Shown: one piece after another, positions 33,136-46,960 of the stretch
How the letters are laid out: each line of letters starts with the position of its first letter
Numbering within the stretch: the stretch's first letter is position 1
NCBI RefSeq assembly: GCF_017301735.1
Contig: NZ_CP071090.1
Location: forward strand, 1,488,001-1,552,000
From: Pyxidicoccus parkwaysis
Lineage (GTDB): Bacteria; Myxococcota; Myxococcia; Myxococcales; Myxococcaceae
Length of the DNA: 64,000 nucleotides
Direction: 5' to 3'
Notes under the pieces: model-generated
The model's database searches: none
The model's input: the letters and a program-made list of their open reading frames with translations, nothing else
What the model was told of the DNA's origin: nothing
Made by a program: the position numbers and the translations under genes

Positions 33136-34650
33136 TCAGGGGCGTGTCGTCGCGGCGGGCTGTTCCCGCTCCCGCACCCAGAGGACATACGCGTCGCTGC
33201 GGTACTGCTCGCGCCACCCACCGCTCATCCGCAGGTGGTCGAGCAGGATGTTGCCCGGGTTCTCCACCTTCCAGAGCAGGTAGTCCGGGTCATAGCGCGA
33301 GAGCGCCTCTTCCCAGCCGGGCTCGCCCCACAGCAGCTTGTCGTAGTCCTGATGGACGGCGAGCGGGAACGGGTCGTTCCGGCTGTCGATGAATACCTTG
33401 TAGTCCGGCCCGGCGAAGAACGAGATGGTGCCACCGAGGACGAAGGGATTGAGCACCCGGCCCGGCGGCAGCGCGCGCAATGCCTCCAGCGCGCCGAGCG
33501 GAATCCACGAGCGCTTCACCCCCTGCTCCAACGGCGTCGGGTGCGTCGCGTGGATGATGCCCAGCACGAGCAGCGCGGCGGCGGGCCAAGGCACGCTGCG
33601 AGCCCAGGCGCTCCAATCCGCAATCACATCATCGAGCCGCTTCCAGAAGCGCTGCCATGCGCTGGATGAGGAGTCAGACGCAGCGCCCGCTGACGACTGC
33701 ACGGCGTGCTCCAGCAGCGTGAGCGCCAGCAGCACGGCGGCGAAGGGCGCATGGCGCTGCACCTTGAGCGCGGCGATGCCGAGCACCGCCGAGGGAAGCA
33801 GCAAGGCCCACCTGCGAGACGGTGCACGGCCCACGGCGAACAGTGTCGCGCCCGCCAGCGCGAGATAGGCCCAGCCCCAGGTCAGGTCCAAATCGAGCGG
33901 TCGCCACTCGACGATGCCCTGCGTGGACGGCAGCACCGAGTGGTGCAGCGGGTACAAGTAGATGGCCGGCCCATCCGGCCCCAGGCCTGCCGCGAGGAAC
34001 GCGGCCCCGGCGAAGGCGAGGGCACGCAGGGAGCGGCGCCGTGAATCCGGCCAGGGCCTGTCGAACGCGGAGCCCACGGCGGCGGCGCCGAGCAGGGCCG
34101 GCCCAAGGGGCCAGCTCCCATGCAGGTTGGCCCACGCCACGCCCAGCAACGGGAAGGCCCAGAGGACGCGCTCATTCCCCGAGCGCCAGGCCTGCACGCA
34201 CAACACCGCGAGGGTGAAGAGCAGGTGTCCCAGGTGGAAGGGCCGCTCCTGGGTCCACGTGGGCGCATGCACCAGCAGCACGGCGCCCAGCGTCGCCAGC
34301 GCGAGCAGCCCACGCTTGCCAGAGGCGGCCCGGCCCAACACGTGCCACAGCAGCAGCACGTTGGCGGACACCAGCGCGGCGACGAGCAGCGCGGGCCCTC
34401 CGGCGCCGAGCCACCGCGTCAGCAGGACGCAGAGCACGCCGAAGCCCCACTCGTGCGGCACCCAGCCGGAGGTGCCGGTGACGCTGAACGGGTCCACCCG
34501 CGTGAAGCCATGCTCCAGGAGGAAGCGGCCTCCAGCGAGGTGGAAGAAGAGGTCGAAGTGCTTCAGCGGCGACGTGCCCAACCGCACGGCGAGCCACAGC
34601 GCGAGGAGGGCCGCAGGCCCGGGCAGGAGGAGGGCGAACCGCGTCCGCAT
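33136..34650 (-). CDS. polytopic membrane protein
   Basis: A 504-aa protein with about ten to eleven hydrophobic helices and an extracytoplasmic C-terminal part of about 130 residues. Early residues HFDLFFHLAGGRFLLEHGF...WVPHEWGF have the flavour of GT-C glycosyltransferase-like proteins (PMT/ArnT), where acidic and His residues in the first loop matter. The tail FFAGPDYKVFIDSRNDPFP also recurs in such proteins. The donor and acceptor are unknown. The next gene upstream (34664) ends 13 bp before it, so they form an operon. Confidence 0.65.
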   Translation of the reverse strand: MRTRFALLLPGPAALLALWLAVRLGTSPLKHFDLFFHLAGGRFLLEHGFTRVDPFSVTGTSGWVPHEWGFGVLCVLLTRWLGAGGPALLVAALVSANVLLLWHVLGRAASGKRGLLALATLGAVLLVHAPTWTQERPFHLGHLLFTLAVLCVQAWRSGNERVLWAFPLLGVAWANLHGSWPLGPALLGAAAVGSAFDRPWPDSRRRSLRALAFAGAAFLAAGLGPDGPAIYLYPLHHSVLPSTQGIVEWRPLDLDLTWGWAYLALAGATLFAVGRAPSRRWALLLPSAVLGIAALKVQRHAPFAAVLLALTLLEHAVQSSAGAASDSSSSAWQRFWKRLDDVIADWSAWARSVPWPAAALLVLGIIHATHPTPLEQGVKRSWIPLGALEALRALPPGRVLNPFVLGGTISFFAGPDYKVFIDSRNDPFPLAVHQDYDKLLWGEPGWEEALSRYDPDYLLWKVENPGNILLDHLRMSGGWREQYRSDAYVLWVREREQPAATTRP

Positions 34651-34663
34651 GGCCGCCTTCCGG

Positions 34664-35860
34664 CTACCGGAACCCCATCCGGCGCAGCATGACGGCGCGG
34701 ATGGAGGGAATCCGGAACCGGTAGATGAGCGCGTCCGCGAAGTAGTGCGCGAGCACCACCGCGAAGCTCAGCGACGTCAGCGCCCGCATCACCGGATGGG
34801 CGCGTATGAGGTCCGCCTGCTGGACGGACACGCCGAACAAGCCCCCCTCCGAGAGCACGCCGTGCACCACGCCGAGGGCGAGCAGGGGCAGCATGCTCGT
34901 CACCATCAGCGGGACGATGAGCGCGCGGGAGACGCGGGAGGTGTCTCCCGGGCGCGGCTCCAGCATGCGCGCGGTGAGCACGTAGTACTCCAGGCCGTGC
35001 ATGCCGGGCAGCATGACGAAGCCCCAAGCGGGGGCCACCAGCGCGAGCCCCGTCGCGGTGGCCATGGCCAGCAGGTAGAGCACCTTCGGTCCACTGCGCG
35101 GGCCCGAGCTCAGCACGGACCGGAAGAGCACCACGAAGTAGCCCATCCACACCGCCAGCAGTACGGCCAGCGTCTCGCGCGGCAGCACGGCGCCCTGGCC
35201 CACGTCGAGCCAGGCGGTGGCGTCGGGGCCCGGCGCATCGGCGACGAAGAAGATGCGCACCAGCAGCAGCGTCAACATCAGCGGCACGTAGCGCTTCTGC
35301 AATTCACGCTCGCGAGAGGAGGCCGGCGGCATGCCGGCGTCGCCTTCCCGCAGCCCGTGCAGCGACCAGAGGCCCCGGTGCTGGGACAGCGTGTGGTGCA
35401 GGCCGAAGACGTTGAAGATGACGGCCACCAGGTACATGTGCGCCGTGCGGTCCACGTAGAAGCTGAAGAAGAGGCCCGTGCACAGCGCGAGCATGCTCAG
35501 CGCGCCCGCGAGCACCTGCCGGGGCTGACCCGGCGCCGACGTCAGCACGTCGCGGTGCACCGCGAAGAGCAGGAAGGTGAGCACCACGTGCGTGGCATTG
35601 CCCAGCAGGTTCTGCGCGGTCCACCCGGCCAGCCGCTGTGCCCCGTCGGCCGAGGACGCGGACAGGGCGCTGAAGGCGGCCACACCCAGCGCGAGCGCCA
35701 GGGGCAGGGTGATGATGAGGAGGTCGGCCCGGGCGGAGAAGAGCCACAGCCCCCGGAAGGCAAGGGTGCCGGCCTGCGCGGTGGGGCGCATGGGGGCCGG
35801 TGATTCCCTGGAGGCGGACAGGGACGGCGCGGCGGTGGCGGTCGGGCTCTGCGGAAGCAT
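34664..35860 (-). CDS. polytopic membrane protein with conserved intramembrane histidines
   Basis: A 398-aa protein with about eight to nine hydrophobic segments after a 30-residue Ser/Ala/Pro-rich start. Histidines recur in or beside membrane helices: NATHVVLTFLLFAVHRD, FGLHHTLSQHRGLWSLH, GMHGLEYYVL and LAHYFADALIYRFR. Such a pattern is seen in membrane di-iron or carotenoid-cleaving enzymes (for example Brp/Blh), but no diagnostic motif allows that call. It is co-directional with 33136-34650. Function unknown. Confidence 0.6.
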   Translation of the reverse strand: MLPQSPTATAAPSLSASRESPAPMRPTAQAGTLAFRGLWLFSARADLLIITLPLALALGVAAFSALSASSADGAQRLAGWTAQNLLGNATHVVLTFLLFAVHRDVLTSAPGQPRQVLAGALSMLALCTGLFFSFYVDRTAHMYLVAVIFNVFGLHHTLSQHRGLWSLHGLREGDAGMPPASSRERELQKRYVPLMLTLLLVRIFFVADAPGPDATAWLDVGQGAVLPRETLAVLLAVWMGYFVVLFRSVLSSGPRSGPKVLYLLAMATATGLALVAPAWGFVMLPGMHGLEYYVLTARMLEPRPGDTSRVSRALIVPLMVTSMLPLLALGVVHGVLSEGGLFGVSVQQADLIRAHPVMRALTSLSFAVVLAHYFADALIYRFRIPSIRAVMLRRMGFR

Positions 35861-36159: not shown

Positions 36160-36546
36160 ATGAGTTCTCGATTGGTAGTGGCCCTGGGTGTGCTGACCCT
36201 GTTCATGATGTCGGGCTGCAACGAGAACCTCGAACCTCCAGTGAGGGCGCCCGAGCCCGGGCAGGTTTTCGGAGAGCATCGCCAGAAGCAGGCTGCGGCG
36301 CGCACGAAACAAGTGGGTGAAGACTGCACGGACTCGGGCCAGTCCGAATGCCTGTCTGGAGTATGTCTCCACACGAAGCCCGGGCCGGGTGAGGGCTATA
36401 TCTGCTCGAAGCAGTGCCAGCAGGACCCCGACTGTCCCGAGGGCTGGCGCTGCGCGGGCACGCGCCCTGGGGCGGCAGCCTCGTTCTGCATTCCTCCCGC
36501 GGACTGGGCGGCCCGGGCCGCCACGACTCCTGGAGGTGAGCGGTGA
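36160..36546 (+). CDS. small Cys-rich lipoprotein, first gene of the Rhs operon
   Basis: ATG 36160 with GGAG five bases upstream gives 128 aa. MSSRLVVALGVLTLFMMSGC is a lipoprotein signal with lipobox MMSGC. The mature part holds Cys pairs spaced as in disulphide-rich surface modules (GEDCTDSGQSECLSGVCLH, CSKQCQQDPDCPEGWRC). Its stop overlaps the next start by 4 bp (GTGA), so the operon is translationally coupled. It could present or anchor the other products at the outer membrane. Confidence 0.7.
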   Translation: MSSRLVVALGVLTLFMMSGCNENLEPPVRAPEPGQVFGEHRQKQAAARTKQVGEDCTDSGQSECLSGVCLHTKPGPGEGYICSKQCQQDPDCPEGWRCAGTRPGAAASFCIPPADWAARAATTPGGER

Positions 36547-37388
36547 TTGTTGCTCCGCTGATCCTGGCGCTCATCGCGGCCGGGCCCGTGTCCCCCGAGC
36601 GATACCTCGCCTTTGGCAATAGCGAGGGGTGGGTGGCCCTGGAAGTCCATTCCCGGAAGGTGGAGCGGATTCGCATCCCGGCGCCCTATCAGGCAAAGAC
36701 GCTGACCATTTCGACGGATGGCGAGCACGTCGTCTTCACGTCGCATGACGAGGCGGCTCGCAATGACCTCCTATACCGCTGGGACTGGCGGAAGGGGGCG
36801 TCGCCCGTCCGCATCGGCGACGAGCAGGGGTTCCATGCTGATCCAGCCATCAGCCCCGACGGGAAATGGGTCTACTTCGCCCACCATCCGAGGATGGGAG
36901 GGCCGCCCGGAATGCATCAGCCCGAGGCGAATGCGCAGCTCTATCGAGTCCGCCTCGATGGTCAGAATTTGACGGCACTCAGCAACGAGAAGGGTTGCCA
37001 CCTGAGCCCTTCGTTCCGTCCGGACGGTGAGCTCATCTACGTCCACACGCTCTGCAGTGTGACCCAGAAGAGCCTGCGGCTGATGAAGAACGGCGTGGTG
37101 CTACCGGACATCCTCGCCACTGAGGAACTGAACGAACCTTCGTTTTCGCCCGATGGGAAACGGCTCGTCTTTGTTTCGCGAAATGGGCCCCATGCCTTGC
37201 TGAAGGAGTGGAACTCGATGGGGCGCCCCGCACGCGTCGTCCATCAGTACCTTCTCAGAGAAGGTTCGCGAGGGCGCGCTCAGTACGGAAGGGATGCCAG
37301 GGAAATCCTCTTCCAGAACGAAGATTCAGTCATGAGGCTCGCTGGCGCTGCCGCGACACGCCTCTTTTCCTTTGGAGACGTGCCATGA
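36543..37388 (+). CDS. TolB/PD40-like beta-propeller protein
   Basis: A 281-aa protein starting with GTG 36543 inside the preceding stop. A short hydrophobic N-terminus (MIVAPLILALIAAG) may be a signal. PD40/WD40-like beta-propeller repeats are evident: ISTDGEHVVFTSHD, ISPDGKWVYFAHHP, FRPDGELIYVHT and FSPDGKRLVFVSRN. Such propellers bind proteins or ligands rather than catalyse. It overlaps the Rhs gene by 4 bp (ATGA), so it is co-translated with it and probably acts with it. Confidence 0.7.
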   Translation: MIVAPLILALIAAGPVSPERYLAFGNSEGWVALEVHSRKVERIRIPAPYQAKTLTISTDGEHVVFTSHDEAARNDLLYRWDWRKGASPVRIGDEQGFHADPAISPDGKWVYFAHHPRMGGPPGMHQPEANAQLYRVRLDGQNLTALSNEKGCHLSPSFRPDGELIYVHTLCSVTQKSLRLMKNGVVLPDILATEELNEPSFSPDGKRLVFVSRNGPHALLKEWNSMGRPARVVHQYLLREGSRGRAQYGRDAREILFQNEDSVMRLAGAAATRLFSFGDVP

Positions 37389-40300
37389 GATTGATTCCGT
37401 TCGCGGCGCTCGTGGGGGCGCTCACGGCGCCTGTCATGGCGCATGCCCAGTTCTGTCCGTCGGACATCCTTCCGCGTTGTGACGCCCCCCAGGGGAATCC
37501 AACGGGAGGGCTGCCTGGCGGAAATGGCGGCGCGCCTCCCCCGCCCAATGCGACTCCAGGACCTCCATTCTTCGGAGATCCCGTCAGCCTCGGAGATGGG
37601 TATGCCTACTTCCGGCAGAAGGACTTCGAGATTCCTCTCAGCCAGGGCAGCCTTCCATTCATTCGAATGTATGTCAGCCCTGCGCGCTCCTATGCCTACG
37701 CGAAGTTTCCTGAGGGGTTCCTGCCTAGTACGTCCACGAACTATGTGCCGCGTCCCTTTGGTGAACATCGGTTCGGAGGAAGCCTGAACTGGTGGCACAA
37801 CTTCTACAGTGCCGTCCGCAAGGACTCACCGACTATCGCCGAGGTAGACATTCGTGACGTGGATGGATTCTTCAACCACCTTCAATGGAACAGCACGCCC
37901 GCCACGTCAGGCAGGTGGTATCTCAACGTCAATAATGCAGGCAGCCGAGATCGTCTTTGGCAAGACAAAGCGGATGGCACGTGGCCAGAGAAATTCGTCT
38001 ACTTCCGCGAGGGAAGCGGGCGCTACACCTACGATGCAGTCTACGTGCACAACACCACCCCGGCTGGCAGGCACTACTTCCTGAGCAGGATCGACGACAC
38101 GGAATATGTCGCTCCCGGACAGACGGAAGTGCCACGTGCCGTGCTTGAGTACGCTCAGCCCTCCACGGATGGAGGCACGGTTCCTGATCCTCTCTGTCCG
38201 GCGGGAGCGGCTGGTTCCACTCCCGGCGTGCCGTACCTGAGCACGGTCACCAGCAGGGACGGGACGAAGCTCCGTTTCTATTATCGCCGCCTCAGCAACA
38301 CGGTGGGGCGCACGGAATGCGTCCTGGACCATATCAACATTGAAGATGTCGCGGACGGAGGCGTGCAGGAAAAGCCCCTGGTCCAGTATCAGTACTCCAC
38401 GCAAGGTAACGAACTCGTGCGGGCAGACTATCCCCAGACGGGAGGAAGCCTCGAATATACGTACCCTGTCACCAACAGTGCGAACGCCCTTCTGGATGTC
38501 CGCGAGGGCGGAGCCCTCAAGAGCAGACACACGTATGAGTGGAGTTCGCCAACCCCCAAACGTGACGAGTCGAACGGGCATGACTACGCCATCGCGGAAG
38601 TTTCGAGCACGAACCCGGCGGTGAAGGATGCGTGTACCCAGGCGAAAAATGGAAGTCTCCCCACGATGGAATTCGCCGACTCCAAGGCGGGACTGGGGAC
38701 CGGAAACGTGGGGCAGACGACCCTGACGTCCCGTTTCGCCTCGGGTGCGGCCTTTGAGTCCCACGCGAGCTGGCGACCGATTTCCTTCGAGACCCGCTGT
38801 GACGGAACGTCGTGCCCGGGCTTCGTGTCGGGAATCGAGAAGTGGGAGTACGAGTGCCCCGGTGTTGATACCTCGGTGGCGCCCGCCATGGCGAAGGCCC
38901 ACAAGGACATGCGCGGCGCCTGGGAAAGCTATGTGCACGAACTCCCGGATGCGGGCGTGCCAGAGGCGCAGGGCGTTCCCTCCAGATACATGAAGGTGCT
39001 CACGCAGGTGCGCGAGGGCGCCCAGGACTCAAGCGGGACGGGCAGCCTAGCCGAGGTCCGTTACGGGTACACCTACGGGAGCTCGACCCGGTCGCTCCCG
39101 GCCTATGAACAGCTCGTCGAGCGGCAGGAAGTGTCGAGCGTGCTCTCACCCGGTGGGATGGCGCGCACGCAGTATGTCTATGACTCGGCCACCAATCGGC
39201 TGAAGGCGATGTTCCGGACGGGGTGGACCTACGAGCGGGGCACGGACGGGAATTGGACGCTGGAGAAGCGCCGCATCGGACTGTTCTATTTCCGAGCCCC
39301 GCAGTGTGGTGGCTCGGGCCCGGAGGATACCCAGGGCCGTGTGCTCGAAACCCATGGCCCTTGCATCGTCGATGATGACACCGCGAATGTCGCCACCATC
39401 ACCGACTGCCCGGCCTCACCGGTCTTCCCGGTGACGAAGTACGAGTACTGGGCGCAGTCGGAAACAAGCCACCGGCGAAACCGCCTGAAGACGCAGACGG
39501 AGCTGCCCGGGGGCTGCGGCGGCACGGCGTCGCTCGTGACGCAGTACCTGGAGTACGACGCCTTCGGGAATGCGACCCGAATCCAGGACCCGGCGGGTGT
39601 CGTCACGGAGCGGGCCTACAACCAGGACCTGCTGGCGCGCGAAACCATCCAGGAGGGCTCCACGTCCATGACGACGCTCCTGACCTATGACCAGGCGCGT
39701 TTGAAAGCCATCCAGCATCCCCAGGGGAACTTCGACGTCTTCTGCTACCGGACGGGGACCACGGCGGGACTGGGGTGCACCGGAGGCTCTCCGACGTACC
39801 TGCTCCAATGGCGGGCGAAGGCCGCGGATGCCAATGGCGTGAGCTGGTCGGAGAAGGTCGAGTACACCTACTGGCCGGATGAGACGGTCAAGTCCGCGAC
39901 GTTCCTGGGTTGGAATGGAAGCGCGGCCGAGACGCGGCGGGTGATGACGTTCAGCGCGGATGCTCGCCGCAGGCCCACGTTCCAGGGGGCAGGGAACCTC
40001 CCGTCTCCCGTAAAGGCCGCCCATCTTTTTGATGCCAATGGCAATGTCACGGGCCTCGGATTCCCGTACAACAATCCTCCGGCCGTCTGCGGCGGACCGG
40101 ATTCATCCGGACAACCCACGTCGCAGCAGTGCACGGCGATGGGATACGACCGGCTGGACCGCTTGACTCGGATCGACGAGTTCCCGGCCGATGGCACCAG
40201 CCAGCGAACGTGTCTCACCTACGATGCCCAAAGCCATGTGACTTCCGTTCGTCAGGGATGTTCGGCCGGCGGCACGGGGGACTGCTCGGCGTGCGCTGCC

Positions 40301-42943
40301 AGCACTCCGACGACGGAGTACACGTATGACGACTTCGGCAACCTCGTGACGGTGATGTTGCCACATACCAGCGATGGTGCAGGCGGAGCTGGTGTCACCC
40401 GATATGCTTTTGATGCGCTCGGGCGGATGCTTCTGAAGGAAACGCCTGAAATGCGCGCCCAGGGTGAGCGGGTGGCATATGAGTATGACACCCTCGGCCG
40501 CCTTCTGCGGGCGAAACGCCATTACACGTCGCCGCTGGCGGGACAGGAGAATCTGTTCGCGCTGTCCTATGACGTGAACGACCCGGCGGACGCCACCAGT
40601 ACGCCCCCCTCCGATTGTCCTCAGCCCGCGCACACGGAGGGACGGCTGCGCTACCGGCATGATTCCTTCGGGCGGACCTGGTACCAATATGACCTGCGCG
40701 GGCGTGTCGCGGGCGAAATTCGCCTGCGCGAGGGACAGACCAGTTGCGCGGCGGCGGGAGTCGCGGATCGCCCGCACACATTCTACGCATACAACGCCAA
40801 TGGCAATCTGACCTCGATCACCTATCCGCATGGGCGTGTCGTGACGTACACGTATGGCACCGGAGCAGACCTTGACCGGGTCAAGGCCATCGACGTGCGC
40901 CTGTGGGGGGCATCCAGCTACACGGACACGCGGATCATCGACGCCGTTGCATGGGAGCCCTTCGGAGGGCTGCGCGGCTACCAGGTCAATCATCCGGTGT
41001 CGGCGACGCGTAGTGCCGTCGAGTACATGCTGGGTGACAACGGAGCCCAGGCGCCCTCCGCATGTCCCTCCACGCCTCCCAGTGCGGTGGCGAGTGACCT
41101 GACTGGCCGGTTGCGGGCTCTGCGGGTGTCCTCGGGGAACTTCAATCCAGGCACCAGCAGTGGCGACATCTTCAAGCGTACCTATACGTGGGCGGGAGAC
41201 CAGGTGGCGCAGCTCGACAGTTGTCTCCTGGGAGCCACGACGCCACGTACCGAGACATTCTCGTATGACAGGACGCTCCGGTTGAAAACGGCGGGACGGC
41301 CGTCCGGCAACTTCGCGGCCACGGGTGGTGCGTTCGAGAGCCGGAGCTACGAATACAACGGTCGCGGCAGTCGTACGGCGCTTTCGGAGGACGGCTACGC
41401 CTTCGATATCAACATGGCCGCGGCCCCGGCCGTGGAGCGGCTGACGGGGTGGGGCTCGGGCACGACGGGGAGCCTCTTCCGCTATTCCATGAGCTACGAT
41501 GCGGACGGCCGTGTCAGCCAGAAGCGCTGGGCCGCGGGAATGAGCGGAGCTCCAGTATTCACCCTGGGCTTCGAGTACGGCCAGTCCACCGGCGTTGCGA
41601 CAGATAGCGTGTTCCGCGCTGTCAACGTCAACGGTCTCTTCTACAACTACTATTACGATGCGCTGGGACGCCGGCGATTGAAGTCTCATCCAGGCGGAAC
41701 CACGGACGAGTTCTTCCACAGCACATCCAATCGACTGCTGACCGACCGTGGGAGCAACGCCTTCACAGTGCCAGTGGGGCATTTTACCACCGACGACTAT
41801 GTCTGGCTGGCAGGGCGGCCTGTGGCAATGGTCAGGGCCAAGTTCAGCAGCGCATGGGTGCGACAGCCTGACAGCGTCGGGGACTGTGCGCGCGATGGAG
41901 AAAGCGTTGCGTGCGGTGTCTACTTCCCTGTGACGGACCACGTGGGGAAGCCCGTGCTGATGTTGGATGGTTCCCGGCGCGTATCCGCAGCGGCGGACTA
42001 CGACGCCTTCGGGAATGTGAACCGGGTGACCCAGGTGGCCGAGACGGCGCACCCCTATCCTGATGCGACCACGACCTCGCTGACGACATTCTCTCAGCCC
42101 AAGGAGAACAGCTCGGTGGTCGTCCGAATGCGTGCTCGGTACCACCTGCTGGACTCGGAAGGCGGCGCGGACTTCATCAGGCTTGTGGATGCAACGTCGG
42201 GAACGACGCTCGATGAGACGTCGGGTGCACGCCGAGGGCGTGTCACCACGAGCTGGGTGACGCCGTCCAATAGCAGTGTGCAGGTCAGGTTCGCCGCAGG
42301 ACCCGCAGGTGGCCCTGCGTATCAGGGCGCGGTCGTCGAAGGGTACGAATACCAGCGCTACCAGTCCGGTGCGCAGCCCTTTTGGACTCCTTTGCGATTC
42401 CCGGGTCACTACTACGACGCCGAGACGGAGCTCCATGAGAACTGGAATCGCTATTATGACCCCAGTATCGGCCAATATCTGCAGCCAGAGTCGATGTTGG
42501 CGAGGAAGTCGGCAGCGCTCCCGGCTTATTCGTATGCCCTGAACAACCCGCTGTTCTACCTCGATGATACGGGGCTTTCGCCACGTGACTGGCTCGGTGG
42601 TCGGTTTGGCTTCTTCGCCTACAAGGTCCTTGAGCTGTCAATAAGGTGGGGGATGCCTAGCCTTGAAACTCCTAAGCCTGGAGGTCCAGGATCAACAACC
42701 AGTCAACCGGCGTTTCCCGAGCCGGCCGGCCGCAGCGCGGCCAACCCGTGTGCAGAAAGTGGAAGTGGTGGCGGAAAGCCCCCGGTTCCGTCCGAGATTC
42801 TGGAAATCTTGAAGCAATTCGGCTCGATGGAGGTCTTTCCAATCATCCTGATGGACCCCAGTCTCATCCTCAATAATCCGAGTATCTTTGACCAGGACAT
42901 TTTTGGGCCCATGGGCGGAGATATTCAGCAGCCCTACATTTGA
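37385..42943 (+). CDS. secreted Rhs/YD-repeat protein
   Basis: ATG 37385 in the ATGA overlap gives 1852 aa; upstream extension is rejected because it would cover the propeller gene. MRLIPFAALVGALTAPVMAHA is a Sec signal, unlike T6SS-delivered Rhs. YD/RHS repeats occupy most of residues 250-1650. The Rhs core-associated end is at about 1668-1735 (YYDAETELHENWNRYYDPSI, GQYLQPES, YSYALNNPLFYLDDTG). The 115-residue tail after it is the usual site of a toxin domain, but I recognise none; it is Pro/Gly-rich, then acidic and hydrophobic. Base use is close to its surroundings. It is followed by a strong terminator and then the 212-aa gene. Confidence 0.85.
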   Translation: MRLIPFAALVGALTAPVMAHAQFCPSDILPRCDAPQGNPTGGLPGGNGGAPPPPNATPGPPFFGDPVSLGDGYAYFRQKDFEIPLSQGSLPFIRMYVSPARSYAYAKFPEGFLPSTSTNYVPRPFGEHRFGGSLNWWHNFYSAVRKDSPTIAEVDIRDVDGFFNHLQWNSTPATSGRWYLNVNNAGSRDRLWQDKADGTWPEKFVYFREGSGRYTYDAVYVHNTTPAGRHYFLSRIDDTEYVAPGQTEVPRAVLEYAQPSTDGGTVPDPLCPAGAAGSTPGVPYLSTVTSRDGTKLRFYYRRLSNTVGRTECVLDHINIEDVADGGVQEKPLVQYQYSTQGNELVRADYPQTGGSLEYTYPVTNSANALLDVREGGALKSRHTYEWSSPTPKRDESNGHDYAIAEVSSTNPAVKDACTQAKNGSLPTMEFADSKAGLGTGNVGQTTLTSRFASGAAFESHASWRPISFETRCDGTSCPGFVSGIEKWEYECPGVDTSVAPAMAKAHKDMRGAWESYVHELPDAGVPEAQGVPSRYMKVLTQVREGAQDSSGTGSLAEVRYGYTYGSSTRSLPAYEQLVERQEVSSVLSPGGMARTQYVYDSATNRLKAMFRTGWTYERGTDGNWTLEKRRIGLFYFRAPQCGGSGPEDTQGRVLETHGPCIVDDDTANVATITDCPASPVFPVTKYEYWAQSETSHRRNRLKTQTELPGGCGGTASLVTQYLEYDAFGNATRIQDPAGVVTERAYNQDLLARETIQEGSTSMTTLLTYDQARLKAIQHPQGNFDVFCYRTGTTAGLGCTGGSPTYLLQWRAKAADANGVSWSEKVEYTYWPDETVKSATFLGWNGSAAETRRVMTFSADARRRPTFQGAGNLPSPVKAAHLFDANGNVTGLGFPYNNPPAVCGGPDSSGQPTSQQCTAMGYDRLDRLTRIDEFPADGTSQRTCLTYDAQSHVTSVRQGCSAGGTGDCSACAASTPTTEYTYDDFGNLVTVMLPHTSDGAGGAGVTRYAFDALGRMLLKETPEMRAQGERVAYEYDTLGRLLRAKRHYTSPLAGQENLFALSYDVNDPADATSTPPSDCPQPAHTEGRLRYRHDSFGRTWYQYDLRGRVAGEIRLREGQTSCAAAGVADRPHTFYAYNANGNLTSITYPHGRVVTYTYGTGADLDRVKAIDVRLWGASSYTDTRIIDAVAWEPFGGLRGYQVNHPVSATRSAVEYMLGDNGAQAPSACPSTPPSAVASDLTGRLRALRVSSGNFNPGTSSGDIFKRTYTWAGDQVAQLDSCLLGATTPRTETFSYDRTLRLKTAGRPSGNFAATGGAFESRSYEYNGRGSRTALSEDGYAFDINMAAAPAVERLTGWGSGTTGSLFRYSMSYDADGRVSQKRWAAGMSGAPVFTLGFEYGQSTGVATDSVFRAVNVNGLFYNYYYDALGRRRLKSHPGGTTDEFFHSTSNRLLTDRGSNAFTVPVGHFTTDDYVWLAGRPVAMVRAKFSSAWVRQPDSVGDCARDGESVACGVYFPVTDHVGKPVLMLDGSRRVSAAADYDAFGNVNRVTQVAETAHPYPDATTTSLTTFSQPKENSSVVVRMRARYHLLDSEGGADFIRLVDATSGTTLDETSGARRGRVTTSWVTPSNSSVQVRFAAGPAGGPAYQGAVVEGYEYQRYQSGAQPFWTPLRFPGHYYDAETELHENWNRYYDPSIGQYLQPESMLARKSAALPAYSYALNNPLFYLDDTGLSPRDWLGGRFGFFAYKVLELSIRWGMPSLETPKPGGPGSTTSQPAFPEPAGRSAANPCAESGSGGGKPPVPSEILEILKQFGSMEVFPIILMDPSLILNNPSIFDQDIFGPMGGDIQQPYI

Positions 42944-42962
42944 TCCTGCTACCCTGAGCTTC

Positions 42963-42988
42963 CCGGCGGGGCGTCGACGCCCCGCCGG
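42963..42988 (+). terminator. strong hairpin after rhs
   Basis: A perfect 26-bp palindrome (11-bp arms around TCGA) lies 20 nt after the rhs stop. AGGAG for the next gene follows at 43005. It would separate rhs from the downstream gene unless read-through occurs. Confidence 0.65.
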
Positions 42989-43014
42989 ATTATCCGATGG
43001 GACAAGGAGATTGA

Positions 43015-43653
43015 GTGGGTAAGCCTGCATTCATGGAGGCCTGGGTCGGATTTCTGTTGCGGTTTGTTCCTTCGGTAGAGACAGATGGATTCAGGATTTA
43101 CTGTCCCCCTGCCGTGGCTGCTCCCATCCTGAAAGGATTGAATCTGCTTTCGGGACTGGACGCGCGACGATATCGGCGTGCCCGTCAGTATGCGCCCATC
43201 ATTATCGGTGCCGGTCCAACCTTGTTTTCAACTCGAACGCATCGCAGCTACATCTCGGTCAAGGACCTCGAAAATGAAGTCGACGCTGCCCGGGTTGTCG
43301 TCCGGATGGCCACCTACGGGTATTTCATCCGCCAGCGGCATGTCTCTTACTCAGGGCCGTGGCGGAGCGGCCTCGAGCAGATCTGCGGCCGGGAGGAGTT
43401 GAGGTTCCTGTGGAAGGTCACTGAGGCGACCCTGGCAGACGACGTGGCTCGTTCCTCGTATATGTCGAAATGGGTCGAATATCAGTTGGCGGTCATGGAC
43501 GGTTTCCGGCTTCGCGAGTACGGAATCGAGAGGCCCGACAGACGTCAGACTCCGGGAGAAGGCGCTGGGGGCCCTCGTTGGACGATCCGGAGCGCGCAGG
43601 ATGCGGTGGCCGCGTTCAATGGCGCGTTCGACAGGTGGCAGGGCCGGATGTGA
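43015..43653 (+). CDS. unknown protein linked to rhs (intact copy)
   Basis: GTG 43015 with AGGAG five bases upstream; 212 aa, no signal sequence or membrane segment. The sequence is alpha-rich with motifs VETDGFRIYCPPAVAAP, RRYRRARQYAPIII, THRSYISVKDLENEVD and FLWKVTEATLADDVARSSYM. I recognise no family. Its position directly after a secreted Rhs gene, and its duplication downstream (44642-45279), are what is expected of an immunity or specialised accessory protein, but this is inference from context only. Confidence 0.6.
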   Translation: MGKPAFMEAWVGFLLRFVPSVETDGFRIYCPPAVAAPILKGLNLLSGLDARRYRRARQYAPIIIGAGPTLFSTRTHRSYISVKDLENEVDAARVVVRMATYGYFIRQRHVSYSGPWRSGLEQICGREELRFLWKVTEATLADDVARSSYMSKWVEYQLAVMDGFRLREYGIERPDRRQTPGEGAGGPRWTIRSAQDAVAAFNGAFDRWQGRM

Positions 43654-43751: not shown

Positions 43752-44278
43752 TTGAGACACCAGGTTGGTTGTAATCAGGCCGCCTGCTTCGACTGCATCA
43801 GCTCTCGCCGGGCCTGACTCGGTGAGAGGAAGTTGTGGCGCTCCAGCAGCCAGTGCTCGTTGTACCGGCGAGCCCACTCCAGCAGGGCCCTCCGGAGTTC
43901 CTCCACGGTGGAGGATGTGCGCACCCAGCGCAACTGCTCCTTGAGAGTGCGGATGAAGCGCTCGGCGCAGCCGTTGTCTTCGGGGCTGCGGACGAAGGAC
44001 GGGCTGGACGCGGCCCCCAGCAAGCGCAGCTCGTCCTGGAATGCGTCGGTTGGCCTCAGCCCCGGCCAGGAACTTCTCCCGCCACTCACTCAGCACCGCC
44101 GCCGTGACGCCCAGCTCCCGCGAGAGCGCGTCGAGTTCCTCGCCCTTGAGCACCCGGAGCACGGCCTCCTTCTTCCGCTTCGCTTCAGAACCGACCGCGC
44201 TCCGCCGTCCTGTCCTGCTTCTGCTGCTTCTTCACATCCACCTCACGAGGGGAAGCTATCCCAGAGAGGTGTCTCAAG
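43752..44278 (-). mobile_element. deleted IS3-family element with inverted ends
   Basis: About 527 bp bounded by inverted copies of TTGAGACACC (43752-43761 on plus, 44278-44269 on minus). Inside, on the minus strand, a broken OrfA start (SEAKRKKEAVLRVLKGEELD and ALSRELGVTAAVLSEWREKF, about 44200-44050) is joined to the last 80-85 residues of the OrfB integrase (RSPEDNGCAERFIRTLKEQL and RRYNEHWLLERHNFLSPSQA, 44030-43775). The middle, with most of the DDE domain, is missing, and OrfA is also frameshifted near its start (in-frame TGA about 44184). A full element would be about 1.2 kb. It cannot move unaided. No target duplication was identified. Confidence 0.75.
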
Positions 44279-44297: not shown

Positions 44298-44583
44298 ATG
44301 CGACTAGAGAGGAGCGCATTGATATTCTTGGCGCTTAGCGGATGTGGGGTGCATTTCCCCCCGCACGCAATTCGTGCGATGCCCGTTAGGGCTATTTAGT
44401 AATGCGACCTGTCACACGATTCCGGGCGGAGATCCTGCTTTGTATTTGCGCTGCGATGCGGATAGCGATTGTCCCGATGAAGCGGTATGCCTCTGTGAGC
44501 ATGCTGGTTGTTCAGGACGCCCGGTCGTGGGAATTGCGGGTGGGGAGTATTCCAATGTTTGTGGCCCAAGGGGAGACAGGTAG
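44298..44583 (+). pseudogene. frameshifted small Cys-rich lipoprotein
   Basis: ATG 44298 (GGAGG upstream) encodes MRLERSALIFLALSGC, a lipoprotein signal, then reads into stop at about 44397. The +1 frame continues with typical disulphide-rich sequence (CDADSDCPDEAVCLCEHAGC) to a TAG at 44581-44583. The frames join at a run of six C (44357-44362), so a single extra base explains the break. The repaired product would be about 95 aa. The region is noticeably AT-richer than the chromosome. Sequencing error is possible. Confidence 0.55.
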
Positions 44584-44641
44584 CCTCCGTTGGCAGGGCC
44601 ATCTCCGGCCTCACCAGGTGCATGAGCGGAAAGGAGTTCGA

Positions 44642-45279
44642 TTGGGCAGGCGAGGCATCAACGAGACCTTGATGGGTCTGCTGCTGCGCGTTGTTTCACC
44701 CATCGAGGTGGATGGATTTAGGGTCTACGGCCCCCCTGACGCCGTTGCTCCTGTCGTAAAAGGACTGGGTTTGCTTTCGAGCCTTGACCCACGAAGGTAC
44801 CGGCGCGCCCGCGACTACGCCTCGATCATTGTCGTCAGCGGTCCAACATGGTTTCAACTCGAACGCATCGCAGCTACCTCTCGGTCAAGGACATCGGAAA
44901 TGAGATCGACGCCGCCCGACTTGTCGTCCGGATGGCCACATACGGGTATTTCATCCGCCAGCGGCGTGTCTCGTACTCAGGGCCGTGGCGGAGTGGCCTT
45001 GAGCAGATCTGCGCCCGGGAAGAGTTGAGGTTCCTGTGGAAGGTCACTGAGGCGACCCTGGCGGACGACGTGGCTCGTTCGTCATATATGTCGAAATGGG
45101 TTGAGTATCAGTTGGCGGTCATGGCCGGTTTCCGGCTTCGCGAGTACGGAATTGAAAGGCCCGCTAGGCGTCAGGCGCCGGGAGAAGGCGCTGGGGGCCC
45201 GCGTAGGACGATCCGGAGCGCGCAGGATGCGGTGGTCGCGTTCAAGGGCGCGTTCGACAGGTGGCAGGGCCGGATCTGA
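44642..45279 (+). pseudogene. frameshifted second copy of the 212-aa rhs-linked gene
   Basis: TTG 44642 (AAAGGAG six bases upstream) opens a frame that matches the gene at 43015 along its whole length; the last 150 nt are roughly 90% identical. Near 44850 the run TTTT of the intact copy is TTT here, shifting the frame after VSGPTW. The rest continues in the next frame to 45279, and an ATG at 44848 could allow a 143-aa restart (MVSTRTHRSYLSVKDIGNEI). It is therefore either a pseudogene or a truncated second protein. Confidence 0.7.
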
Positions 45280-45306: not shown

Positions 45307-45780
45307 ATGCGATCACTCTTCCGTTGGGCCGTTTGTGTGGCGGGTGCTCTTTGCGGGTGTGCGCACTCTGTTGTTCCGCGCAACGTCGCTCATGCCAAGG
45401 CCATTTCGCAGTGCCTTGTGAGCTCCGGTCATCCAGAACTTGTGGGGACGGGGTCTGAGGCAGAGAAACAGGAGGTGTGCCGGGAGAGGTGGTGGGCTGC
45501 TGCGTTTGAGATTGAGACGAAATCGAGCTGTGTTTCGGATTCGGACTGCGTTCTGATGTCCCTTCAGCCGGCGCAGTATGGATGCCTCATGGCCAGTTCT
45601 GCGCAGGTATGGAAAGAGGAGTTGGCGCGCATCAATCGAAGTGTGCACTCCGTGTGCGGATACGTCGATGTCTGGTGCTACGGCGAGGATCCGCGCGTGC
45701 GCTGCATCTCCGGGAAGTGCAAAACGCCGGGATACCCAAGGATGGAAATTCCCAGGGGCTCGGATTGCGGTGCTCGATAG
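45307..45780 (+). CDS. Cys-containing lipoprotein
   Basis: ATG 45307, with GAGGGAG upstream, gives 157 aa. MRSLFRWAVCVAGALCGC is a signal with Cys in ALCGC as likely lipidation site. About eight further Cys occur in the mature part (SSCVSDSDCVLMS, VCGYVDVWCYG, VRCISGKCKTPG), a pattern shared with other small lipoproteins of this organism. It starts 27 nt after the frameshifted copy and may be co-transcribed with it. Function unknown. Confidence 0.65.
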   Translation: MRSLFRWAVCVAGALCGCAHSVVPRNVAHAKAISQCLVSSGHPELVGTGSEAEKQEVCRERWWAAAFEIETKSSCVSDSDCVLMSLQPAQYGCLMASSAQVWKEELARINRSVHSVCGYVDVWCYGEDPRVRCISGKCKTPGYPRMEIPRGSDCGAR

Positions 45781-46102: not shown

Positions 46103-46960
46103 ATGTCCATCAACGGTATCGGCAAGGGGCGCGGTGCCACGCCTCCACCGACGGTCCGCTCGCCGGACGTCGAGGAGCGGCCGGCCCAGTCCCGCACCGC
46201 CAACACCACCGCCAAGAAGGGCACGTCTTCCACCAGCACCTTCGAGCAGCCCAAGGCGGACTACCGCAAGCTGGGCACTCGCGAGCCGGCCCCCGGGGAT
46301 ACCGGCAAGGGTGTCGGTGCCGCTGCTGCTGCCGGTGCCGCCGCGGGCGCTGCTGCCGTGCAGGCCGCCCAGGACGCCAAGCGCCTCCAGGACATCAAGA
46401 CCCTCCTCGCGGACTCGCCCACCGGCGCCGCCGCGGTGAAGTACCTGGAGGACAAGAACATCAAGGTCGAGTTCGCCAACGGCGGCGGCTCGTACTGGGA
46501 CGGGAACAAGATTGTCATCGACCGCTCCCGCCCGATGGAGCGCAACGCGCTCTCGCTGGTCCACGAAATCAACCACGCCAAGGCCAGCATCGACGGGCCC
46601 AAGGCGGACATCGTCAAGGACACGCGCACGGACTACGTGAAGAAGATGCTGGACGAGGAGGTGCGCGGCACCGTCGACAGCATCAAGGCGAAGAACGAGC
46701 TCGTCGCCAAGGGCAAGTCCATCTCCGCCACGTACCCGCTGGAGGACAAGTACAACGCCGCCTACAAGAAGGCCGTGGACGACGCGAAAAAGGCCAACCC
46801 CAAGGCCACCGAGGCCGAGCTGAAGAAGATTGGCGAGAAGGCCGGCTACGAGCGCGTCCTCAAGGGCTTCCAGGACGGCGAGGTGACGACCAGCACCACG
46901 GGCGTCAAGTATCCGGACTACTACGGCCAGGCCTGGGACAAGGCCCACCCGAAGAAGTGA
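46103..46960 (+). CDS. putative zinc metallopeptidase (HEINH)
   Basis: A 285-aa protein without a Sec signal. The first 65 residues are polar and disordered, followed by an Ala-rich segment (GVGAAAAAGAAAGAAAVQAA, residues 70-89). The centre carries HEINH (H154, E155, H158) in ALSLVHEINHAKASIDG, a zincin signature, after FANGGGSYWDGNKIVID. Glu185 or Glu186 could be the third ligand. This compact arrangement resembles small, effector-like metallopeptidase domains rather than a known protease family. The stop overlaps the next start by 4 bp (GTGA), so the two are co-translated. Confidence 0.65.
   Translation: MSINGIGKGRGATPPPTVRSPDVEERPAQSRTANTTAKKGTSSTSTFEQPKADYRKLGTREPAPGDTGKGVGAAAAAGAAAGAAAVQAAQDAKRLQDIKTLLADSPTGAAAVKYLEDKNIKVEFANGGGSYWDGNKIVIDRSRPMERNALSLVHEINHAKASIDGPKADIVKDTRTDYVKKMLDEEVRGTVDSIKAKNELVAKGKSISATYPLEDKYNAAYKKAVDDAKKANPKATEAELKKIGEKAGYERVLKGFQDGEVTTSTTGVKYPDYYGQAWDKAHPKK

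Follow-up and report, generated by a model that had tools for sequence, protein, structure and literature searches.

A locus of Pyxidicoccus parkwaysis, in which a very large Rhs protein is encoded behind a lipoprotein and a beta-propeller protein and ahead of a soluble 212-aa protein, bears on the question of what keeps Sec-exported Rhs toxins at the cell surface and how they are released. We analyzed a window of 64,000 nucleotides containing this locus (positions 1,488,001-1,552,000 of the 13.2-Mb single-contig genome) and compared its genes with those of other genomes. With moderate confidence, we read it as a polymorphic-toxin locus: a lipoprotein with a gene of its own would anchor or assemble the Sec-exported Rhs shell, and the tail of that shell would be neutralized by the 212-aa protein.

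Gene organization of the locus

The first-pass annotation had described three genes joined by 4-bp stop-start overlaps, the first encoding a Cys-rich lipoprotein and the last an 1852-aa Rhs protein with a Sec signal rather than T6SS features, followed by a gene for a soluble 212-aa protein. All of these features were found (Table 1). The lipoprotein frame opens with ATG at 36160 and stops at 36544-36546, the propeller frame opens with GTG at 36543 and stops at 37386-37388, and the Rhs frame opens with ATG at 37385, with its stop codon ending at 42943; the two junctions are overlaps of GTGA and ATGA, respectively. The lipoprotein carries a signal peptide with the lipobox MSGC, and its C-terminal half is rich in Cys. 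The Rhs signal, MRLIPFAALVGALTAPVMAHAQ, is without a lipobox, and no PAAR or VgrG domain was found. The 212-aa frame begins with GTG at 43015, 71 nt past the Rhs stop, and is preceded by AAGGAG; its product has no evident signal peptide and no match in Pfam or NCBIfam. PADLOC returned no match.

Further downstream, a frameshift near 44850 breaks the second copy of the 212-aa gene. The first-pass annotation did not record this copy, the transposase remnant, or the lipoprotein gene at 45307-45780. By eye, an apparent broken Cys-rich lipoprotein gene lies just 5' of this copy (44301-44600). Between the locus and its right flank, a 285-aa protein (46103-46960) has a sub-threshold match to the putative metallopeptidase family DUF6782 (2.9e-5).

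Table 1. Features of the Rhs locus, in window coordinates
Feature	Position	Strand	Remarks
Cys-rich lipoprotein	36160-36546	+	128 aa; signal peptide and lipobox MSGC; 5' of 39/43 related Rhs genes
TolB-like PD40 beta-propeller	36543-37388	+	281 aa; PD40 6.7e-16; beside Rhs at six loci
Rhs/YD-repeat protein	37385-42943	+	1852 aa; Sec signal of SPI type without lipobox; RHS_repeat 1e-17, Rhs_assc_core 1.5e-14
Variable C-terminal Rhs tail	42575-42940	+	~120 aa
212-aa soluble protein, candidate cognate immunity protein	43015-43653	+	Profile family n = 10, four directly 3' of Rhs
Transposase (integrase core) remnant	43778-44089	-	Pfam rve_3 8.2e-10; between the two 212-aa copies
Second 212-aa copy, frameshifted	44648-45279 (about)	+	89% identical over last 143 residues
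157-aa lipoprotein, candidate orphan immunity protein for another tail	45307-45780	+	Homologue behind HExxH-tailed Rhs in genome G017

A separate lipoprotein gene precedes nearly all related Rhs genes

A survey of 61 related genomes yielded 43 long matches to the Rhs protein. The lipoprotein gene lies on the same strand directly 5' of 39 of these, and 39 of the 42 strong lipoprotein matches precede an Rhs gene. This recurring order is not a chance association. Three of the four Rhs genes without the lipoprotein (G001:C28, G003:C21, and G031:C174) are on contigs that end upstream within ~5 kb, and the fourth stands second in a tandem Rhs pair of G010.

A signal followed by Cys is present in 36 of 37 lipoprotein matches (26 by a strict pattern and the rest by eye). 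The Rhs family members with an intact N-terminus have SPI-type signals, and none has a convincing lipobox; the lipobox pattern flagged 2 of 37, one of them truncated by its contig and the other flagged inside the hydrophobic stretch before the SPI site. As a control, we inspected nine other Rhs proteins in the window genome, at least four of which carry their own lipobox, and no lipoprotein match was found in the ten loci taken for this genome's other Rhs proteins. Because the lipoprotein has a lipobox, its Rhs partners show no convincing one, and several other Rhs proteins of the genome carry their own, we infer that the lipid anchor is supplied in trans by the separate lipoprotein.

The same lipoprotein is also encoded 5' of a set of short Rhs proteins (~1384-1437 aa; L104, L116, L117, L118, and L140) with no toxin-like tail. 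These tail-less proteins are alike across five genomes, including the window genome.

The propeller accompanies one Rhs subtype

The nearest solved chains to the propeller are those of TolB. The propeller gene adjoins Rhs at six loci only (the window, G020, G004, G017, G010, and G031), and the order lipoprotein-propeller-Rhs recurs at G020, G004, and G017. At the propeller-bearing loci, the Rhs protein has a short region before the shell, which defines one N-terminal subtype; elsewhere the N-termini are long and Cys-rich or of other kinds. The propeller, which is probably secreted, is thus an optional accessory of this subtype. Single-sequence structure models were unusable, with a mean pLDDT of 55.6 for the propeller and 37.5 for the 212-aa protein. 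The first-pass annotation had proposed that the lipoprotein and the propeller assemble or cap the shell of a surface-displayed Rhs system, a proposal that is partly supported. The tie of the lipoprotein to this Rhs family is real; a role of the propeller in assembly or capping would fit its link to one N-terminal subtype but is less well supported, as the propeller is optional.

The Rhs protein has a conserved shell, a changed cleavage motif, and a variable tail

The Rhs protein contains YD/RHS repeats and an Rhs-associated core, and its relatives combine a conserved core with variable tails, the features by which Rhs/YD polymorphic toxins are recognized. The core domain ends at residue 1731, near the point at which the relatives' homology to the protein stops. 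No SpvB match was found, nor was an NHL or fibronectin domain found with Pfam models, which were used in place of the HMMs of the teneurin study discussed below.

C-terminal autocleavage of one Rhs protein requires the Asp of the second motif (PMC8636562). In the window Rhs, the second Asp of the PxxxxDPxG-type motif is kept in the variant NPLFYLDDTG, and the first position is Glu, in QPE (window positions 42480-42577); the motif pattern missed this protein, and QPE was read by eye. In 28 of the 34 family Rhs proteins scored, the C-terminal cleavage pair has Glu in place of its first Asp. Among the six that have the first Asp, five are the tail-less short forms, which are without the second motif, and the sixth has an Ntox47 tail. 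Rhs proteins outside the family have Asp at the first position wherever the motif is visible. The change from Asp to Glu bears on whether autocleavage is needed.

The tail of the window Rhs consists of a hydrophobic stretch, a Pro/Gly-rich linker with one Cys, and a hydrophobic end. Pfam recognized no enzyme motif or domain in it, and as a single-sequence query it found no convincing relative in 145 genomes; it might be inert or decayed. Tails of related Rhs proteins rarely resemble each other. Another locus of the window genome has an Ntox47 tail (2.3e-37), and other tails match a nucleotidyltransferase (5e-7), DUF4329 (5.6e-9 at one locus and below the cut-off at another), and, below threshold, Tlde1 (6.9e-6; all Pfam). 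HExxH is present in 10 of 36 tails.

The gene after each of the 10 HExxH tails (L105, L107, L110, L126, L127, L128, L131, L136, L137, and L138) encodes a product that has a hydrophobic segment at its N-terminus, as does the gene after a minority of the other tails, in a tally that was classed post hoc and partly by eye and in which several HExxH tails are homologous. This suggests that the HExxH tails may have envelope targets, with exported or membrane-bound immunity proteins.

The 212-aa protein belongs to a rare family found behind unlike Rhs carriers

As a single sequence, the 212-aa protein was found in 3 of 145 genomes, and two scans of genome contigs with it gave no relative. Profile searches extended the family to 10 members, excluding the frameshifted second copy. 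A model built from four members (window, G034, G003, and G012) gives each of the remaining six a higher rank than any unrelated real protein or shuffled sequence; its sole other strong match is the window's own second copy.

Family members lie directly 3' of Rhs at four loci: the window (71 bp), G044 (an overlap of a few bases), and G079 and G074 (28 bp each). These loci represent at least three genera and two unlike Rhs carriers, as the carriers in G079 and G074, which are close to each other, are of a different Rhs type with another N-terminus. Given this distribution and the rarity of the family, immunity is the best reading of the 212-aa protein and its likely role, as first proposed. Wide occurrence apart from Rhs would have spoken against that role; the family is rare, though 6 of the 10 members have no Rhs gene alongside.

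The tails encoded beside these genes offer a second line of comparison. A tail profile retrieved four tails, each next to a 212-family gene, but three of these had built the profile, making the result largely circular. Used by itself, the G044 tail puts the other three 212-linked tails ahead of the remaining real tails and of all shuffles (E 0.034-0.77), and the window tail alone retrieves none of them. A model of the other three places the window tail first among the real tails that did not build it, but at E 1.6 and below one shuffle. In this non-circular test the window tail thus resembles the other 212-linked tails only marginally, and we base the pairing of tail and 212-aa protein on gene linkage rather than on homology of the tails. 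As the partner protein is soluble, the window tail probably acts in the cytoplasm.

By eye, the family member in G039 (L178:2299-2844) adjoins genes resembling phage capsid genes. We also considered whether the 212-aa protein is a pseudo-metallopeptidase, as its central helix recalls an HExxH helix. Pfam gave no such match for the ten members, and a search for VHEATHA yielded only two matches, both in frames unlike genes, so this idea was dropped.

The locus occupies a chromosomal hot spot

The locus lies between genes for membrane proteins on the left (33136-35860) and genes for proteins of 441, 325, 411, and 265 aa on the right. Related loci in nine genomes share these flanks (G003, G004, G010, G012, G017, G020, G021, G024, and G025). 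At this site, G012 and G003 have kept the 212-family, 201-aa, and 157-aa genes without Rhs, and G021 has Rhs fragments only. In G017, a homologue of the window 157-aa lipoprotein is encoded at the same chromosomal site ~12 bp 3' of an HExxH-tailed Rhs; because of this position, the window protein is probably the orphan partner of another tail. The hot spot swaps toxins and retains old candidate protective genes, and so displays toxin and immunity turnover at one site. The four-gene order, which we sought in other genomes, is not one conserved unit: lipoprotein and Rhs occur together generally, but the propeller is confined to one subtype, and the tail with the 212-aa gene forms an exchangeable module.

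Proposed mechanism and alternatives

In the mechanism that we favor, the Rhs protein would be exported by Sec and fold as a YD-repeat shell with an exchangeable tail. Having no lipid anchor of its own, it would depend on the separate lipoprotein for anchoring or assembly in the envelope; in this subtype, the TolB-like propeller may assist at the N-terminal side. When the cell touches a neighbor, the tail would be delivered, and the soluble 212-aa protein would protect the producer. Tails and partner genes are exchanged at the fixed chromosomal site, where orphan partner genes build up. The data show directly the structure and signals of the genes, the linkage of the lipoprotein and of the 212-aa gene to Rhs, the variability of the tails, and the hot spot; from these we infer anchoring in trans, tail delivery, tail toxicity, and immunity by the 212-aa protein. 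A more specific version, which we put forward tentatively, is a teneurin-like delivery device divided among three cistrons (lipoprotein anchor, propeller, and Sec-exported shell) that assembles outside the inner membrane. Its release site would be altered, with Glu at the first Asp position of the autocleavage pair, its tail exchangeable, and its immunity family apparently undescribed.

The role of the lipoprotein is where a competing explanation comes closest. It is possible, though we doubt it, that instead of providing an anchor the lipoprotein acts in the periplasm as a dedicated chaperone, or as an export pilot, and helps the very large Rhs protein to fold or to cross the outer membrane. 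Near-obligate pairing and coupled translation fit a chaperone equally well, and the protein is small and Cys-rich. However, several other Rhs proteins of the genome have their own lipobox, which makes it seem that lipidation as such is what is required.

Two further alternatives, both improbable in our judgment, concern the tail. If the Rhs protein were a surface adhesin or recognition protein like metazoan teneurins, the tail would serve for binding, and the 212-aa protein would be an adaptor or a processing factor rather than an immunity protein. The tail is indeed short and Pro-rich, with no catalytic residues recognized, and several genomes retain short, tail-less relatives that have this lipoprotein. 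Yet almost every locus has a different tail, with recognized toxin domains among them, and members of the 212-aa family are found as orphans and beside an unlike Rhs carrier, a pattern shared with immunity genes. Equally unlikely is that the tail is a decayed stump and that the locus no longer kills and persists for its partner genes. The frameshifted second 212-aa copy, the nearby transposase remnant, and the Rhs fragments in G021 would fit such decay, but the 1852-aa frame is intact, and the tails beside other 212-family genes are of similar length and build.

Comparison with known systems

Large signal-bearing Rhs proteins act in kin discrimination in Myxococcus xanthus independently of T6SS (Rhs4/Rhs5; PMC10433427), and the window Rhs resembles them in its size, signal peptide, and variable C-terminal tail. 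It differs from T6SS PAAR-Rhs effectors in having a signal peptide and, by Pfam and NCBIfam, no PAAR domain. WapA is a further example of a Sec-exported Rhs polymorphic toxin. Unlike Rhs4/Rhs5 and WapA, the window has a separate near-obligate lipoprotein gene and a propeller gene, and the C-terminal cleavage motif of its Rhs has Glu in place of the first Asp.

Bacterial teneurin-like proteins combine an anchored shell with a propeller and a toxin and are accompanied by an immunity gene; they are frequent in Myxococcota, with predicted lipid anchoring (PMC13018210). The window shares with them the YD shell, the variable tail, and a 3' gene as candidate immunity gene. In these proteins, a single polypeptide comprises anchor, NHL propeller, and shell, and the signal in Gram-negatives is of the SPII type (PMC13018210), whereas the window has three genes, an SPI-type Rhs, and a PD40 propeller, and Pfam detected neither a fibronectin nor an NHL domain fused to the YD shell.

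The cassettes of SitBAI, which are outer-membrane-exchange toxins, contain an accessory gene that overlaps on the 5' side, a lipoprotein, and an immunity gene on the 3' side (PMC5562445). The Rhs locus is likewise a myxobacterial cassette and has the same build, with the 212-aa gene as the candidate immunity gene. SitA, however, is itself the lipoprotein toxin, whereas the window carrier is a separate Rhs without a lipobox. In the TcB-TcC cocoon of ABC (Tc) toxins, an Rhs shell is associated with a propeller domain that is part of TcB. The window also associates an Rhs shell with a propeller, but there is no SpvB in its Rhs, and its propeller is PD40/TolB-like, not integrin-like, and encoded by a separate gene.

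Our searches of open-licence papers turned up no account of an Rhs protein whose lipoprotein partner is encoded separately. The broad kind of system, a secreted Rhs shell with an exchangeable tail and a probable protective protein, is known; what is unusual is that the anchor and the propeller helper are separate genes and that toxins go on being replaced at the site while old protective genes stay. A separate, near-obligate lipid-anchor gene bears on the role of the anchor in holding such toxins at the surface, and the self-anchored Rhs relatives in the same genome make that role testable.
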